From positions 1-64,000 of the forward strand of contig VGLK01000002.1 of the NCBI GenBank assembly GCA_016866755.1: 64,000 bases of DNA, written 5' to 3'. This stretch comes from Candidatus Saccharimonadota bacterium (GTDB lineage: Bacteria; Patescibacteriota; Saccharimonadia; Saccharimonadales; Saccharimonadaceae). Made by a program: the position numbers and the translations under genes. Shown here in pieces: positions 2,575 to 61,151 of this stretch (positions are counted from its first letter, which is position 1; every line of letters starts with the position of its first letter). The notes beneath the pieces are model-generated. The model was not told the origin of the DNA and did not search any database. It saw only the letters and a program-made list of their open reading frames with translations.

Positions 2575-5442
2575 TTAGGTTTTTGCAAGCGAAACAATCA
2601 GCTCACTACCCTCAACTTTTACTGTCGTCTCAAAAGCCAACTTATCGCCATCGCGCATATTTGTTGCTAGTGTCTCACTCAGTATTGTGTCGGCATGTTC
2701 AGAAATTGCAGTCTGAATGTCTACATCTTCGGTAGTGAGTGCAAGCTTAATTCGGTCATCAACATTTAAACCAGCCTGCTTGCGAGCTGATTGAACGTGG
2801 CGAACTACTTCACGCATTAGGCCTTCGCGTTTAAGTTCTGGCGTAAGAGTCTCATCAATTGCAACTTCGTCACCCAGCTGAACTCGCTTCACATTTAACT
2901 CATCTTTTAGAATAGATTCAAAATCAACAAATTCGCCCTTGGTCGGCACCATTACGCTAGCAAGCGGTTGTCGCACTTTCAGACGTGCTTTAGCGCGCAA
3001 ACTTAGCCCCTGATTTACATAGTCACGAACCGTCTCCATGTCATTCATCACCAGTTCATTTACCCGTCCAGCCGACAGCCAGTCTTTCAAATGAATTGAT
3101 TTATCATCGCCAGTTAGCCCATGATACAATTCTTCGGCCAAAAACGGCGTAAACGGCGCAAGCACGTACGCCAAACGTACCAGTACATAATGCAGCGTTT
3201 TATAAGCGTCGTTCTTATCGCCATCATCTTCACCTTTCCAAAAACGGCGGCGCGAGCGACGAACAAACCAGTTAGAGGCATCGTCAATAAACGGTAAAAT
3301 TGGCGAAAGTGCATCGGGAATATTGTAGGCGTCCATATTTTTTTCAACTTGCTCAACCAGCTGGTGCAGGCGCGAAATAATCCAAACATCAAGTGGATTT
3401 TCAACATCGTCAATTGGATCTTTTAGATTTCCGTCAAACTCCCAGCCATCAACACTGGCGTACATTGTAAAGAAGTCGTACATGTTCCAAATCATGCTTA
3501 ATTTACGAGCAACATCGCCAACTTCTTTGTCTTGCAGGGTAAAATCTTCGCCGTTTAAAAGTGGACTCGAAAGCAGCAAGTAGCGCAAACTATCGGCACT
3601 GTAGGCGTCCATCAACTCCATAGGATCGGTAAAATTGCCGTACGATTTACTCATCTTGCGGCCGTCGTTACCGGCTACGTTACCCGTTACAATCACGTTT
3701 TTAAAAGAGTTTTCGCCAAATAACGCCACGCTCATAGCGTGCATGTAGTAAAACCACGCCCGAACCTGACCGATGTATTCCACAATAAAATCACCCGGAA
3801 AGTTAGCTTCAAATTTGGCCTTGTTTTCGAACGGATAGTGGAACTGAGCAAATGGCATGCTGCCCGCTTCAAACCAGCTATCCATAACTTTATCAATCCG
3901 CTCGTACTTTACGCCGTCAATTTCAAAAGTAATGTCGTCTACCCACGGACGGTGGTAGTCATTTAATTCTTTACCAGATAACTCTTTAAGTTCTTTGTAC
4001 GAACCAACGACTTTTGTGAGTACTTCGCCGTCCTTATCGGTACCCTTCCAAACCGGCATCGCCGTCGCCCAAAAGCGATCGCGAGACAGGTTCCAATCTG
4101 GTGCTTGCTCGATAGTTTTGGCGAACCGGCCATTCTTTACATGGCTTGGAAACCATTCAATATCGCCATTGTTTTCAAGCATGTCTTTGCGCTGAGCGTC
4201 GATATCCATAAACCAGCTTGGGTGGGCGCGGTACATTAACTTTGTACCACATCGGTGACAATGCGGGTAGCTATGGCGAATATAGTCGATTTTCCAGACA
4301 ATGCCGCGACTCAAGAGGTCTTTAGCGATCTGCTTGTTAATCTCCCAAACGTTCTGCCCTTTCCAGTCGCTTTCGGTAAATATACCGTTTTCGTCGATGG
4401 CGTGCACAACTGGAATTTTGCTGGCCCGCGCCATCACAAAGTCTTCTTCGCCGTAAGCCGGTGCGATATGAACAATTCCGGTACCCGACTCAGTGGTAAC
4501 GTAATCAGCCGACCATACCTTGTGGGCATTTTCGCCGCGATGTGTACCAAGTAGTGGTTGATACTCGAGGCCGATTAAGTCACTACCCTTTAGCTCACCG
4601 ACTACTTTGTAATCAAGTTGCTGATGCTTTTCGTCGGTTAGTACTTTTTCGACTAAATCCTTCGCCAAAATTAATCTTTCGCCACCGAGTTCAACTTCGC
4701 TGTACACAAAATCTTTATTCACAGCCAAAGCCGTATTAGCTGGTAGTGTCCATGGGGTTGTCGTCCAGGCTAGTAGCTGGCGACCGTCGGCTAGTTTGAA
4801 CTTTACGTAAACACTTGGATCGGTAATATCCTGATAAGCCCCAGCGTCCATAGTCACCTCGGCCTTTGAAAGCGGCGTCGCATCAAGCGTACAGTACATC
4901 AGCACCTTTTCGCCTTCGTAAATTTTACCCTTTTCGTAAAGCTCCTTAAATGCCCACCAAACAGATTCCATATATTCTTTATCCATGGTTTTGTAAGCGC
5001 CCTTAAAATCAACCCAACGACCGATTCGATCGATCGTGTCTTCCCAAAGACTACTGGTTTGCACCATATTTTCGCGACAAGCTACAATATACTTTTCTAA
5101 ACCATAATCTAATACTTCTTCACGCGATTTCAAGCCAAGCTTCTTTTCGGTGTAGCGTTCGGCAGGCAGGCCGTGACAATCCCAGCCCCAAACACGTTCA
5201 ACGCGCTTGCCTTTCATGGTCTGATAGCGCGGCACGGCGTCTTTAACGATGCTTGAAAGCAACGTGCCATGGTGCGGCACGCCCGAAATAAACGGCGGAC
5301 CGTCGTAAAACACATACGAATTTTCCACTGGACGCTGGGCAACTGATTTTTCAAACGTCCTATCGTTTTTCCATTTTTGCACCCATTCGTTTTCATACTC
5401 GCGAGCTCGACGTCGAGTGTTGGCTTGAAATTTCTTTGGCAT
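2575..5442 (-). CDS. ileS: Isoleucyl-tRNA synthetase, type 2 (eukaryote-like)
   Basis: This 955-residue class I synthetase charges tRNA-Ile. The start is the ATG at 5442, 6 nt after AAAGAGGAG. The signature region FYDGPPFISGVPHHGT (residues 45-60) is the HIGH site, here HHGT, and GWDCHGLPAE and the KMSKS loop (about residues 593-597) follow. The editing domain lies between them, and the C-terminal anticodon-binding region is complete. The GVPHHG context and the CHGLPAE motif place it with the type 2, eukaryotic/actinobacterial branch, which is known for mupirocin resistance (family knowledge, not tested here). The gene is alone in its transcript, behind a T-box leader. Confidence 0.97.
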   Translation of the reverse strand: MPKKFQANTRRRAREYENEWVQKWKNDRTFEKSVAQRPVENSYVFYDGPPFISGVPHHGTLLSSIVKDAVPRYQTMKGKRVERVWGWDCHGLPAERYTEKKLGLKSREEVLDYGLEKYIVACRENMVQTSSLWEDTIDRIGRWVDFKGAYKTMDKEYMESVWWAFKELYEKGKIYEGEKVLMYCTLDATPLSKAEVTMDAGAYQDITDPSVYVKFKLADGRQLLAWTTTPWTLPANTALAVNKDFVYSEVELGGERLILAKDLVEKVLTDEKHQQLDYKVVGELKGSDLIGLEYQPLLGTHRGENAHKVWSADYVTTESGTGIVHIAPAYGEEDFVMARASKIPVVHAIDENGIFTESDWKGQNVWEINKQIAKDLLSRGIVWKIDYIRHSYPHCHRCGTKLMYRAHPSWFMDIDAQRKDMLENNGDIEWFPSHVKNGRFAKTIEQAPDWNLSRDRFWATAMPVWKGTDKDGEVLTKVVGSYKELKELSGKELNDYHRPWVDDITFEIDGVKYERIDKVMDSWFEAGSMPFAQFHYPFENKAKFEANFPGDFIVEYIGQVRAWFYYMHAMSVALFGENSFKNVIVTGNVAGNDGRKMSKSYGNFTDPMELMDAYSADSLRYLLLSSPLLNGEDFTLQDKEVGDVARKLSMIWNMYDFFTMYASVDGWEFDGNLKDPIDDVENPLDVWIISRLHQLVEQVEKNMDAYNIPDALSPILPFIDDASNWFVRRSRRRFWKGEDDGDKNDAYKTLHYVLVRLAYVLAPFTPFLAEELYHGLTGDDKSIHLKDWLSAGRVNELVMNDMETVRDYVNQGLSLRAKARLKVRQPLASVMVPTKGEFVDFESILKDELNVKRVQLGDEVAIDETLTPELKREGLMREVVRHVQSARKQAGLNVDDRIKLALTTEDVDIQTAISEHADTILSETLATNMRDGDKLAFETTVKVEGSELIVSLAKT

Positions 5443-5460
5443 CGTATTCTCCTCTTTATT

Positions 5461-5710
5461 AAAACAAAAAATCACTTCCTTTGCCTGCCAGAATCCGGAT
5501 TATCCGGACGGTACCATCTGGCTTCCAAAAGAAGTGATTCACGGGCACCCCACAAAACGGTTTTGCAGGAGCCCCACTTTTTTAGCGCTTATTCTTGTGT
5601 CGTCTGTCGGGCGACTCCGCTGGGTTCTACTAAGGCAAAAAGTATTCGCCCGTTCTTCCCAAAAACATTCGCGGGTGATAGCCGCTCATATGTAGTAACT
5701 ACATAGTGTC
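5461..5710 (-). promoter_or_regulatory. T-box riboswitch (Ile specifier) upstream of ileS
   Basis: On the minus strand the leader shows, in order: a short stem around GCGGCUAUCACCCGC with the isoleucine codon AUC as specifier (5677-5679), GGGAAGAACGG, a stem GGGCGA/UCGCCC enclosing the S-turn-like AGUAGAACC, a further hairpin, and a discriminator. The discriminator consists of GCCAGA/UCUGGC, the seven-nt bulge UGGUACC (5510-5516) and UCCGGAU/AUCCGGA. UGGU suits the ACCA end of tRNA-Ile. The short specifier stem resembles actinobacterial ileS T-boxes. The discriminator is enclosed by AATCACTTC.TTTG/CAAAGGAAGTGATT (5470-5483 with 5526-5539) followed by TTTTTTG, which looks like a terminator. 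Confidence 0.85.
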
Positions 5711-5717
5711 TACCGTT

Positions 5718-5747
5718 ATTCTACCTCGCCTGCAGTCTATTTGTCTA
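5718..5747 (-). promoter_or_regulatory. Probable ileS promoter
   Basis: TAGACA (5742-5747) and TAGAAT (5718-5723) on the minus strand are 18 bp apart, just after the end of the preceding gene and upstream of the T-box. Confidence 0.5.
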
Positions 5748-5753
5748 GCCAGC

Positions 5754-6380
5754 CTAATATTTACCCTGCAGTCGTAGCAATATTCCACCAATCACTACTA
5801 AAACCATTGCTAGCCCAATTACAAACGGCAGTCCAAGGCCAGTATCTGCTAAATCGCCTTTATTAGTCGATGGCCGAGGTTTATCAATCGGCGTATCGGG
5901 CAGTAGAGCTGGTGGCGCGTCTATTGCGGTGTTGTCGGTAACCCTGATTGTTAATTCGGTAGTTACGGCATCTTGATAAAAGTGACTATCTTTTGTAAGC
6001 ATTTCAAGCGTAACTACATACGTACCAGATTTTGTTTGTGAATATAAATGCGATAGATTAAGCGTCCAATCGTTACCCGTGGCAGTTAAGTACCTACTTT
6101 GGCCAAGCGTATACCACTGACCAAACAACATAACTCTAAAAGATTTAGCCCGCAGCGAATCGTATTTACCACGCAAAATAAGCTGCCCATTGCTAGCAAT
6201 AATTTCTTCTACAATTGGCACATACGACTCGTCGCAGGTACTAGCGCCGCTCGCTGACTGGCTAAGCTGCACAGTAGTAGACGTACATATAATCGGCTGA
6301 ATTTCTTGCTGTAGTCTAAAATCAGGCACTGGCGAGACAGCAAGTAGCGGCACAAAAAATAAAAGGCTTACTGGCAACAT
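5754..6380 (-). CDS. Secreted protein with LAxTG-type C-terminal anchor (csc-cluster small surface protein)
   Basis: The 208-residue product has a hydrophobic N-terminal signal (residues 1-17), a beta-rich ectodomain with one likely cysteine pair (CTST..., STCDES) and a C-terminal sorting-like signal: LADTG at about 177-181, a hydrophobic stretch and the basic tail RLQGKY. LAxTG is the motif used by class E sortases of Actinobacteria; no sortase is in this window. The ATG lies 1 nt after the stop of the RCC1 gene, so it is translated as the last gene of the operon. In Firmicutes csc clusters a small LPxTG-like protein holds the same position; I infer an equivalent role. Confidence 0.7.
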   Translation of the reverse strand: MLPVSLLFFVPLLAVSPVPDFRLQQEIQPIICTSTTVQLSQSASGASTCDESYVPIVEEIIASNGQLILRGKYDSLRAKSFRVMLFGQWYTLGQSRYLTATGNDWTLNLSHLYSQTKSGTYVVTLEMLTKDSHFYQDAVTTELTIRVTDNTAIDAPPALLPDTPIDKPRPSTNKGDLADTGLGLPFVIGLAMVLVVIGGILLRLQGKY

Positions 6381-42532: not shown

Positions 42533-43765
42533 TTACTTTTTATAGCCAATTCCTTTTATAAGACCTTTTGGCAAAGATTTAACGGTTGAGCTGCGGGTAG
42601 AATCGAATGTTTTATGCCACGGTGCGGGCGCATCAGCCATAAGATCACTCACCATTTGTGCTCCCGCGGTTGCATTGGTCATTCCCCACTTTCTTAATCC
42701 TGTAATTACATAGGCATGTTTTGACCACGGATACAGCTTACCGACAATAGGTAGGTCGTCATAACTAACAAAATCCCACGTTGACCATGAATACTTTACT
42801 TCGCTCAATCCAAGATAATCTTGGCCGTACTGAGCTAGTCTGTTATATCGTCGCCGCGCCGATGTATTCATGCCTACAAAATGACCTTCGCCGCCAACCA
42901 GTACCCACGGTTTTCCTTCAACCTCTAAAGGTAGCACCGAACGAGTTGGGCTGCCGGTTGATATATACATACCTTCAAGCGTTCTCTCTATTGGTCCGGC
43001 AACAATATACGAACGAACTGGATATTCCAGTAAGCCGTACGCCGCATGATCTTTAAGTTTACTCGGCGCATTTGTTGCAATAACAATATCACGGGCCGCA
43101 ATTGCTCCACTTGCAGTCTGCACCACGCACGATTCTCCATCGCTATATCGGGTCACTTTAGAGTGTTCATAAATTTTTCCACCACACAACTCGACTGCTC
43201 GCGCTAATCCCGCCAAGTATTTCATAATATGAAACGTCGCCTGTTTGGGCACCTTTACTGCCCCAATAGCCGGCGCTGCAATTGGCAGCGAGGTGCAGTA
43301 CTCGGCTGGTACGCCAAACTTATTATATAATTCTGTTTCTTTTTTAAGCTTTGAAATTTCATCTGAAGAATTGGTAAACACGTAGTTATCAAGCTGACGC
43401 CAGTCGCATTCAATCGACGCCTCTTTTACAATATCTGCAATCTTTTCCAGTCCTGCTTTGTTGGCCTCAAGATAATCTCGTGCTGCAACATCACCATGCG
43501 AAGCTGCAATTTCACCTAGTGCTTGCGCGTGCTGCACAGTAACCTTAGCCGTCGTATAACCGCTCACTCGCGAGCCAATCGTGTCAGCCTCAAGTAAAAT
43601 TACCCGCCTACCCTCTTTGCTTAGTAAATAAGCAGTTGTTAGCCCAGCAATGCCACCACCAATCACCACCACGTCGCATTCTGCTGTACCTTTAAACGAC
43701 GGATGCGGTGTAGCCGTAAACGACGTACGCCATAATGAGGTTCCGAGCGAGGGGTAACTTTTCAT
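42533..43765 (-). CDS. FAD-dependent oxidoreductase, DAO family
   Basis: The 410-residue protein has the FAD-binding VVVIGGGIAGLTTAYLL (about residues 32-48), LLEAD, the C-terminal FAD region YVITGLRKWGMTNATAGA and a substrate domain between. It resembles oxidoreductases that often carry a C-terminal Rieske domain; that domain is missing here. The substrate is unknown. The ATG is 6 nt from CATACT without ribosome site. It is one of two oxidoreductase genes separating 16S from 23S. Confidence 0.88.
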   Translation of the reverse strand: MKSYPSLGTSLWRTSFTATPHPSFKGTAECDVVVIGGGIAGLTTAYLLSKEGRRVILLEADTIGSRVSGYTTAKVTVQHAQALGEIAASHGDVAARDYLEANKAGLEKIADIVKEASIECDWRQLDNYVFTNSSDEISKLKKETELYNKFGVPAEYCTSLPIAAPAIGAVKVPKQATFHIMKYLAGLARAVELCGGKIYEHSKVTRYSDGESCVVQTASGAIAARDIVIATNAPSKLKDHAAYGLLEYPVRSYIVAGPIERTLEGMYISTGSPTRSVLPLEVEGKPWVLVGGEGHFVGMNTSARRRYNRLAQYGQDYLGLSEVKYSWSTWDFVSYDDLPIVGKLYPWSKHAYVITGLRKWGMTNATAGAQMVSDLMADAPAPWHKTFDSTRSSTVKSLPKGLIKGIGYKK

Positions 43766-43816
43766 ATGTTAAGTATGCGCCTCGATCGTCCTATTGTGCT
43801 GCGATATATCTTACAA

Positions 43817-44968
43817 TCAGCTAGTCCTGTGGTCGGCACCAACTGCTTCACTTATTGATTGGAAGCCGTCTTTTTTTAATCGCAACGCTAAACCACGATT
43901 AACATGCGCTGGCAGCGCCGGTCCACCAAAAATAATGCCGGTAAACATTCCGACCAAGCTGGCGCCTGCCCGAATTTTTTCGTAAGCGTCTTGAGCGCTT
44001 GCTACACCACCAACGCCAATAATTGTTAGCGAACCGTTGGTTTTTTTATAAACATAACGAATAATCTCCGTCGAAGTAGCTCGAGTGGGTGCACCACTAA
44101 TTCTCCATGCGTCTACTCTAGGCGGTCGGTCATCTCGCGGATCAACCATCACGCTTTCCAGCGGTCGCAAATTAGCAACCGTTACCCCGCTCACTCTGTC
44201 GTTATGCCGCATTAGCACCGTAAGAATTGGCGCAATATCGCCTGGCTCTTCAACCGACGGGAGCTTAATATATAACGGCACATTAATTGCTATATTTTTT
44301 AACCCGCCAAGCAATTCCTCGAGGCCTTCGGGAGCGCAAAATGGCTGCTCTCCCTGCTTATTCACACATCCAATGTGCAGCTCAACCGCCAGTACATCAG
44401 TAGTTTTCGCAATTAGTTCTAAAGACGCCTTCGTCGCATCGACCGCCTCGCGTAACCGCCAGTCTACAGTAACCCCGCTGACTGCAAGTGAAATAATCGC
44501 TGGCACCTCTACATCTTCGCCGGTTGATTTTTTTAAATTATTTAGGGCTACCTCTACACTTTCAGCGCGTAACTGGGCGCGTACGGCAACTGATCGAGTG
44601 TAGCGCAGCCGGTGATACATTTTTTCACCCTTCGCAAAATCAATCGCCGCGTACGTTAACGATCCTGCGGTCATAAAACCAACCCCTAAGGTTGAAATAA
44701 GCGGACGCAGTTCTAAACTCTTGTCAAAACCGGCCGCGACCCCAATTGGCGATATAATAAGTTGACCATGAAACGTCTGCTGAAGTACGGGATACTGCCG
44801 AACACCATATAGCACGCGACTCATTCGCCGGTACAGCGTATACTGCTGTACACGTCGCATAACTAACACCATATAATTATGAATAGCATCAGGGGTAAAC
44901 AAAAAAACTACCTGACGAATTAATGCCACATACCCAAGGCGCGAGAAAAAATTTAGTATATAAGCCAC
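43817..44968 (-). CDS. pyrD: Dihydroorotate dehydrogenase, class 2-like
   Basis: The 383-residue FMN enzyme of pyrimidine synthesis has the membrane-associating N-terminal helices, SPIGVAAGFDKS, LYIKLP (FMN lysine region) and the C-terminal phosphate motif GVGGVASAQDAYEKI...GASLVGMFTGIIFGGP. The class 2 active-site motif, usually NxSSPNT, reads HIGCVNK, so the catalytic Ser is a Cys, as in class 1 enzymes. GTG start. No other pyr genes are in the window. Confidence 0.86.
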   Translation of the reverse strand: MAYILNFFSRLGYVALIRQVVFLFTPDAIHNYMVLVMRRVQQYTLYRRMSRVLYGVRQYPVLQQTFHGQLIISPIGVAAGFDKSLELRPLISTLGVGFMTAGSLTYAAIDFAKGEKMYHRLRYTRSVAVRAQLRAESVEVALNNLKKSTGEDVEVPAIISLAVSGVTVDWRLREAVDATKASLELIAKTTDVLAVELHIGCVNKQGEQPFCAPEGLEELLGGLKNIAINVPLYIKLPSVEEPGDIAPILTVLMRHNDRVSGVTVANLRPLESVMVDPRDDRPPRVDAWRISGAPTRATSTEIIRYVYKKTNGSLTIIGVGGVASAQDAYEKIRAGASLVGMFTGIIFGGPALPAHVNRGLALRLKKDGFQSISEAVGADHRTS

Positions 44969-45030: not shown

Positions 45031-45146
45031 AAAAAACACCCTACGAATGGTGGGCGATGAGGGACTTGAACCTCCGACCTCGTCATTATCAGTGACGCGC
45101 TCTAACCAGCTGAGCTAATCGCCCCCGAATCGTAGGGTGTTTTTTT
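45031..45146. terminator. Terminator-like hairpin whose loop contains tRNA-Ile
   Basis: AAAAAACACCCTACGA (45031-45046) and TCGTAGGGTGTTTTTT (45130-45145) are inverted repeats that flank the tRNA. On the minus strand the stem is followed by TTTTTTG, so the tRNA leader and trailer pair to form what looks like a terminator. Confidence 0.7.
45048..45124 (-). tRNA. tRNA-Ile (GAT)
   Basis: A 77-nt cloverleaf with acceptor GGGCGAT/ATCGCCC, anticodon GAT in CTGATAA, GGTTCAAGTCC T-loop and encoded CCA. Confidence 0.97.
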
Positions 45147-60748: not shown

Positions 60749-61151
60749 TGGTGGAGCTGCCGGGCACCGCCCCCGGGTCCAAGTGGTAACTGGTTATTCG
60801 TCTACAGGTATAGTTACATTTAAAATTTTTATCCGTACATGAATGCTTATAAATATAACAAAAAAACAATTACACACGCGTATGAAAAAGTTTAACTACA
60901 AAAAGCTCACACTTCACTTTCCGTGGCGAGTCTACTAAATATAACACACTCAAATCCTATAATAGACATCTAGGCGAGTATGGCATGCCTAAATTAGGCA
61001 GCTAGCGCAAAAGCAGTTTGACGAGGCATCATTGATGCAACAAATGCTTTTGCTTTGTCTGCAAAGTTTGCAATTAAAAAACTGATTACGTCAGTGGTCG
61101 ACCTGCAAAATAACCTGTTAATGTCCTCTTGTCGAAAGCTATGTCAGCCCC
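60749..61151 (-). ncRNA. ssrA: tmRNA (transfer-messenger RNA)
   Basis: On the minus strand the molecule starts GGGGCTGACATAGCTTTCGAC and ends GGACCCGGGGGCGGTGCCCGGCAGCTCCACCA-like, the tRNA-Ala-like half with encoded CCA. The tag frame runs from the resume codon GCA (61071-61069) to TAA (60996-60994): 25 residues ending ALAA, the usual ClpXP degron. It rescues stalled ribosomes. The stretch between the tag and the 3' end is AT-rich. A TATAAT box (61067-61072 region excluded; -10 at 61167-61172) lies just upstream. Confidence 0.93.

Follow-up and report, generated by a model that had tools for sequence, protein, structure and literature searches.

A putative transcription-terminating T-box of ileS in Saccharimonadales whose terminator is predicted to fold around the A1/A2 hairpin and to compete with stem III

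In this study, we show by sequence comparison and covariation that the leader of the isoleucyl-tRNA synthetase gene ileS in a Candidatus Saccharimonadota genome carries a conserved set of T-box parts together with two competing helices, stem III and a terminator, which share one strand. The leader lies on the minus strand of the 64,000-nt stretch of contig VGLK01000002.1 that was analysed (the window), where it is flanked by an upstream gene, whose end is at 5754, and by ileS (5442-2575) (Table 1). It is likely to be an isoleucine-responsive T-box that acts by terminating transcription, with a putative tRNA-controlled mechanism in which four steps are what we infer: the binding of tRNA, the role of its charging, the path of strand invasion and cellular termination. 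An off-state hairpin folded around the tRNA-reading part is common in the relatives and has apparently not been described before.

Table 1. Features of the ileS leader region, in window coordinates
Feature	Position	Strand	Basis or remark
Candidate promoter-like pair TAGACA-18-TAGAAT	5718..5747	-	Upstream of leader; consensus scan only, 10/12 matches; carries no weight as evidence of function
T-box leader of ileS	5689-5461	-	Sequence reading and covariance model
Stem I GCGG/CCGC, 7-nt loop CUAUCAC	5671..5685	-	Read in sequence
AUC specifier in stem I loop	5679-5677	-	Complements anticodon GAU
Stem II with S-turn motif (GGGAAGAA ... AGUAGAACCC)	5620..5662	-	Sequence, alignment, covariance model
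Stem IIA/B pseudoknot	5599..5619	-	CGG 5619-5617 with CCG 5610-5608; GUCG 5615-5612 with CGAC 5602-5599; read from sequence
RRRxG purine string AAGCG	5586..5590	-	In most of 152 leaders, motif adjoins the best stem III hairpin on its 5' side
Stem III	5525..5585	-	CUAAAAAAGUG 5585-5575 with CACUUCUUUUGG 5536-5525, C5531 bulged; fold with terminator 3' strand blocked or still untranscribed
Extra hairpin capping stem III	5574-5541	-	Absent from most relatives
AA linker, stem III to A1	5523..5524	-	AA here in 150/152 parsed leaders
Antiterminator/discriminator hairpin A1/A2	5487..5522	-	Sequence and fold
A1 GCCAGA/UCUGGC	5522-5517/5492-5487	-	Fully paired in 149/152 leaders (parser demanded at least 5/6 pairs)
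Bulge UGGUACC between A1 and A2	5516-5510	-	Read in sequence
A2 GUCCGGA/UCCGGAU, G5509-U5493 wobble	5509-5503/5499-5493	-	
Predicted terminator around A1/A2	5461..5540	-	15 bp: GAAUCACUUCUUUUG 5540-5526 with CAAAGGAAGUGAUUU 5483-5469; MFE and covariation
U-tract	5471-5461	-	Enclosing helix runs into U-tract
Shine-Dalgarno AGAGGAG	5449..5455	-	Lies outside terminator
ileS, isoleucyl-tRNA synthetase	2575..5442	-	ATG start 5442-5440; TIGR00392 814.5 bits vs cut-off 621.4

That the leader is a T-box is practically certain. Every part is present in order, namely stem I, stem II with its S-turn, IIA/B, AAGCG, stem III, AA, A1, UGGUACC and A2; the AUC specifier fits ileS, the UGGN bulge fits A73 of the tRNA-Ile(GAU) encoded in the same window (45048-45124, with A73 and an encoded CCA, ending ...ACCA), and the array of RRRxG, stem III and AA is in place. 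The first-pass annotation had read an isoleucine-type T-box upstream of ileS from an AUC specifier, a AGUAGAACC-type internal loop and a seven-nucleotide bulge between two helices, and had likened the short specifier stem to that of the translational ileS T-boxes of Actinobacteria. All of these items were recovered on the minus strand, the internal-loop motif at 5631-5623 in stem II and the specifier in the 7-nt loop of a class III-like stem I, and the reading agrees with the TIGR00392 score of the target and with the covariance model R1 described below. Among 152 parsed leaders, the stem I loop is CUAUCAA/C with variants (the parser demanded AUC in the loop), the S-turn has its 3' motif in 142/152 and its 5' GAA in 143/152, and the purine string is AAGTG in 58, AAGCG in 40 and AAGAG in 17 (115/152 in total), counted with a hairpin search whose sole demand was a hairpin ending just before A1; the RRRxG motif of known discriminators is defined in PMC7583486. 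Helix IIB, parsable in 104/152 leaders, covaries, pairing at -3.2 kcal/mol with its own strands versus -1.7 kcal/mol when these are swapped (101 distinct leaders). The bulge is exactly UGGNACC in 138/152 leaders. In 12/152 (L013, L025, L078 and L082 among them) it is UGGUAAC, without the ACC that is held to make the discriminator stable. The pair at the base of A2 is G-U in only 86/152, a pair that PMC7583486 names as the primary charging sensor.

The first-pass annotation had taken the lack of a covariance-model match as refuting, and for Rfam that is the outcome. RF00230 did not match the window leader at its cut-off, at E <= 10 or in a search of the whole genome, and Rfam at E <= 10 over the window returned chance microRNA families only and no T-box. 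A match to RF00230 is a library criterion, not a biological one. On relatives, RF00230 matched leaders in 18/61 genomes, none above the cut-off, which we take as support only; its single match in the genome under study is upstream of thrS. This thrS T-box (contig C2, 70789-70959, outside the window) scores 36.4 bits, and its terminator folds as a separate hairpin after A1 that is not enclosing. IleS was searched in 61 genomes (G000 included) and 54 upstream regions were read, of which 31 held both stem I and the bulge; R1 was built from an alignment of 30 of those 31 leaders, the window being left out. R1 matches the window leader with a score of 77.2 bits (E 1.4e-20). Its structure is limited to stem I, stem II, A1 and A2, so that it is blind to stem III and to the topology of the terminator. 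It matches in 206/294 genomes of the order (88/294 without a match) and in 102/286 genomes drawn over the phylum. Among named genomes, the closest IleS-matched loci are mostly from Candidatus Saccharibacteria / Saccharimonadia, with an R1 match at E <= 0.1 in 36/80. An IleS motif follows the leader in 45/48 parsed loci with long flanks, the exceptions being L020, L100 (mis-parsed) and L102. The IleS of the window (2578-5442) itself gives strong scores with the MupA and MupB (mupirocin-resistant) models, far under their cut-offs, which presumably hints at the second IleRS type.

The 3' part of the leader (101 nt) folds at -40.7 kcal/mol, compared with -24.3 ± 3.05 kcal/mol for 200 shuffles (z -5.4), and we are highly confident that the terminator encloses A1/A2. 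The long stem with a U-run around the discriminator, noted in the first pass, thus corresponds to a 15-bp helix that covaries over 105 leaders; it is invisible to our terminator scan because that scan allows loops of 3-8 only. One topology rule, a helix stronger than -7 kcal/mol abutting a U-run, was used for all leaders. From 203 parsed loci, 182 with a candidate, came 157 distinct leaders, of which 134 are nested (the terminator 5' strand lies upstream of A1, hence around A1/A2), 18 conventional, four unclear and one mis-parsed (L100). The terminator helix has a median of 14 pairs (119 leaders) and is followed by the U-tract. Its 15 pairs in alignment A3 (105 distinct leaders) are 87.1% paired versus 70.3% in shuffles, with 236 versus 82 double-change cells, both against shuffles that ignore relatedness; in a slid control that keeps relatedness, the covariation score of 0.528 falls to 0.225 or less (105 leaders).

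The nested layout is neither uniform nor confined to one group. In a smaller nested kind, the purine string itself pairs with the strand before the U-run (e.g., L046, L180, L034). When 20 loci from other parts of the phylum or class were folded, at least seven had an enclosing terminator (L300, L301, L303, L306, L307, L311, L315), and others among them a conventional or a separate hairpin. The conventional type within the order, where AUUGGA further downstream matches UCCAAU of the A1 3' strand, was seen repeatedly in a single group of close genera, in records labelled animal gut (e.g., L226, L228) and in L217 and L238. As a control, the same rule was applied to 30 Firmicutes RF00230 loci from two records (32 matches, two without a locus); the automatic score was 20 conventional, three nested, six unclear and one without a U-run, and on refolding L324 and L346 turned conventional, so that only L340 stayed nested. 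L340 is an Acetoanaerobium noterae T-box before a pheS-like frame (named by eye), whose terminator seems to enclose A1/A2, indicating that the layout is not confined to Patescibacteria, though it is rare in the Firmicutes control.

The 5' strand of the terminator (strand b) doubles as the 3' strand of stem III, and the two helices therefore exclude each other. In 120/134 nested leaders (119 by a second rule), stem III and the terminator 5' strand overlap; the window is not among the 119 because the automatic parser chose a longer hairpin there. Strand-swap tests on 102 distinct triples in 17 strand families, with swaps between differing leaders, gave -14.5 kcal/mol for own versus -5.8 kcal/mol for swapped strands in the pairing of b with the terminator 3' strand (strand c), and -6.9 versus -1.9 kcal/mol in the pairing of b with the stem III 5' strand (strand a). 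When each family was reduced to a single representative, the own pairing was the best of all in 13/17 for b-c and in 10/17 for a-b. Covariation of stem III was anchored on the flanking motifs only, not on the MAFFT columns of A3, since the 5' strand is misaligned there between subtypes; so anchored, it is 77% paired versus 59 ± 1.6% in shuffles (78 distinct nested leaders). Together, the swaps and the anchored pairing indicate that strand b has two covarying partners, a in stem III and c in the terminator. For the window, the fold without c contains stem III (-40.6 kcal/mol); once c is present, the terminator fold is at -58.1 versus -41.9 kcal/mol, a preference of about 16 kcal/mol; the median preference is 11.3 kcal/mol in 125 nested leaders. 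Stem III is thus probably the helix that is traded against the terminator. The first reading, that the leader departs from the usual mutually exclusive antiterminator, was right in that the arrangement differs from the textbook switch, but stem III does exclude the terminator through the shared strand. The window's stem III is atypical, with 11 bp and a bulge beneath an extra hairpin of ~40 nt, which hides the shared strand and is why a tool-free reading missed the partner. As read from these pairings, the switch would still be mutually exclusive, with stem III acting as the antiterminator and A1/A2 able to persist in both states.

On this basis, we propose that RNA polymerase would first make stem I, stem II and the pseudoknot, which would hold tRNA-Ile by its anticodon, and next stem III and the A1/A2 hairpin, which would offer UGGU to the 3' ACCA of the tRNA. 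Uncharged tRNA-Ile would dock there, with the purine string and the AA linker serving as a latch that keeps stem III closed, so that strand c stays single and polymerase reads through into ileS. With charged tRNA-Ile, or with none, c would invade stem III and pair with b into a long hairpin around an intact A1/A2 that ends in the U-tract, and transcription would terminate; the helix given up for the terminator would be stem III, not A1/A2. The computed energies fit a switch that is OFF by default and that tRNA may hold open during the passage of the polymerase.

It is unlikely that the leader is a translational class III T-box of the actinobacterial kind, controlling access to the ileS Shine-Dalgarno sequence beside an incidental U-run. 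Class III T-boxes act mostly on translation (PMC10482949) and those of actinobacterial ileS sequester the Shine-Dalgarno sequence (PMC1262725); the distance from the start of the U-run to the start codon is short, with a median of 25 nt (measured in 147/152), and the b strand CUUCUUUU could by eye pair with the Shine-Dalgarno sequence of the window. However, that sequence lies outside the covarying helix and is constant where b strands vary, the helix adjoins a U-tract in nearly all classified leaders, and several genomes have a first gene other than ileS, with the IleS motif 344-997 nt downstream. We give an equally low probability to the model suggested in the first pass, in which tRNA bound inside the hairpin directly loosens the same terminator without an alternative helix. 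Since the terminator fold leaves A1/A2 and the bulge intact, the bulge could remain accessible to the tRNA 3' end, but this model leaves out a stem III that is kept by covariation, shares strand b and is flanked by RRRxG and AA as in known discriminators.

Less probable again is a decayed leader in this genome, in which the switch has been disabled by the insertion in stem III and termination is constitutive. The ~40-nt hairpin and the 16 kcal/mol in favour of the terminator would suit such decay, whereas all remaining parts fit the consensus, stem III still has 11 bp in the nascent RNA and ileS is expected to be essential. A conventional T-box, with the terminator 5' strand taken from the A1/A2 3' strands, is the textbook layout (PMC10907184 and PMC7583486) and suits 18/157 leaders and most Firmicutes controls, but it is very improbable in the window, where that pairing reaches -3.5 versus -19.0 kcal/mol for the enclosing one.

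Compared with known systems, our proposed stem III switch combines features of several. As in the class III ileS T-boxes of Nocardia farcinica and Mycobacterium tuberculosis, the leader has a short stem I without an IDTM, the specifier in an apical loop, an S-turn stem II, IIA/B, ileS as target and isoleucine specificity. It differs in its stem I loop, which has 7 nt versus the 5-6 nt given for class III in PMC10482949, and class III is mostly translational and described in Actinobacteria, whereas this leader has an intrinsic terminator and a Saccharibacteria-type host. A translational sequestrator is not what we found, the Shine-Dalgarno sequence lying outside and the terminator helix and U-tract being conserved, although class III is only 'mostly' translational, so that this trait is not strictly defining. 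The UGGN bulge, A1/A2, the array of RRRxG, stem III and AA, and the U-tract terminator are shared with class I/II transcriptional T-boxes (Bacillus tyrS, glyQS), which have in contrast a long stem I with an elbow-binding IDTM and a terminator that uses the A1/A2 3' strands; in the present leader it surrounds A1/A2 instead and uses up stem III. In its working only, the leader resembles the ZTP-type strand-exchange platform described in PMC10907184, in which a terminator arises when a strand further downstream invades a helix of the aptamer, a step that the ligand blocks; the ZTP ligand is a small molecule and its aptamer unrelated. TBDB applied its translational model to genomes of Actinobacteria and to class I hits whose stem I is truncated (PMC7778990). 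In the open-access literature on T-boxes or riboswitches together with Patescibacteria, Saccharibacteria or candidate phyla, we found no description of such a layout.

In the accepted model, as given in PMC10907184 and PMC7583486, charged tRNA shears A1 and frees the A1/A2 strands, the 3' strands of which form the terminator 5' strand (PMC10907184); shearing of A1 gives the OFF state, and the IDTM is held essential in transcriptional T-boxes (PMC7583486). If the OFF state keeps A1/A2 whole, sensing must run through stem III and the purine string. With some reserve, we lean to the view that the T-boxes of Saccharimonadales, with a related layout in other Patescibacteria, read charging via stem III and the purine latch alone, that A1/A2 is constant in both states while stem III is the antiterminator, and that a short class III aptamer without elbow contact acts quickly enough to control transcription. 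If this is true, two assumed rules would be broken, the need for A1 shearing to reach OFF and the need for an IDTM in transcriptional T-boxes, and an OFF state with A1/A2 whole would mean that natural leaders separate the two proposed sensing steps. The nested and conventional layouts within one bacterial order offer a direct comparison. Moreover, little is known of gene control in ultrasmall bacteria, and the leader would be a widespread regulator there, acting on an essential synthetase and missed by the standard T-box model.

Elsewhere in the window, the rRNA operon is interrupted at 42533-44968 by two long ORFs of 410 and 383 aa, both on the same strand, between tRNA-Ile and 23S rRNA, and the 23S rRNA carries insertions of ~37 and ~72 nt versus the bacterial consensus (41928-41752). 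A divergent tmRNA at 60749-61151 scores 85.6 bits with Rfam and has no ARAGORN match.
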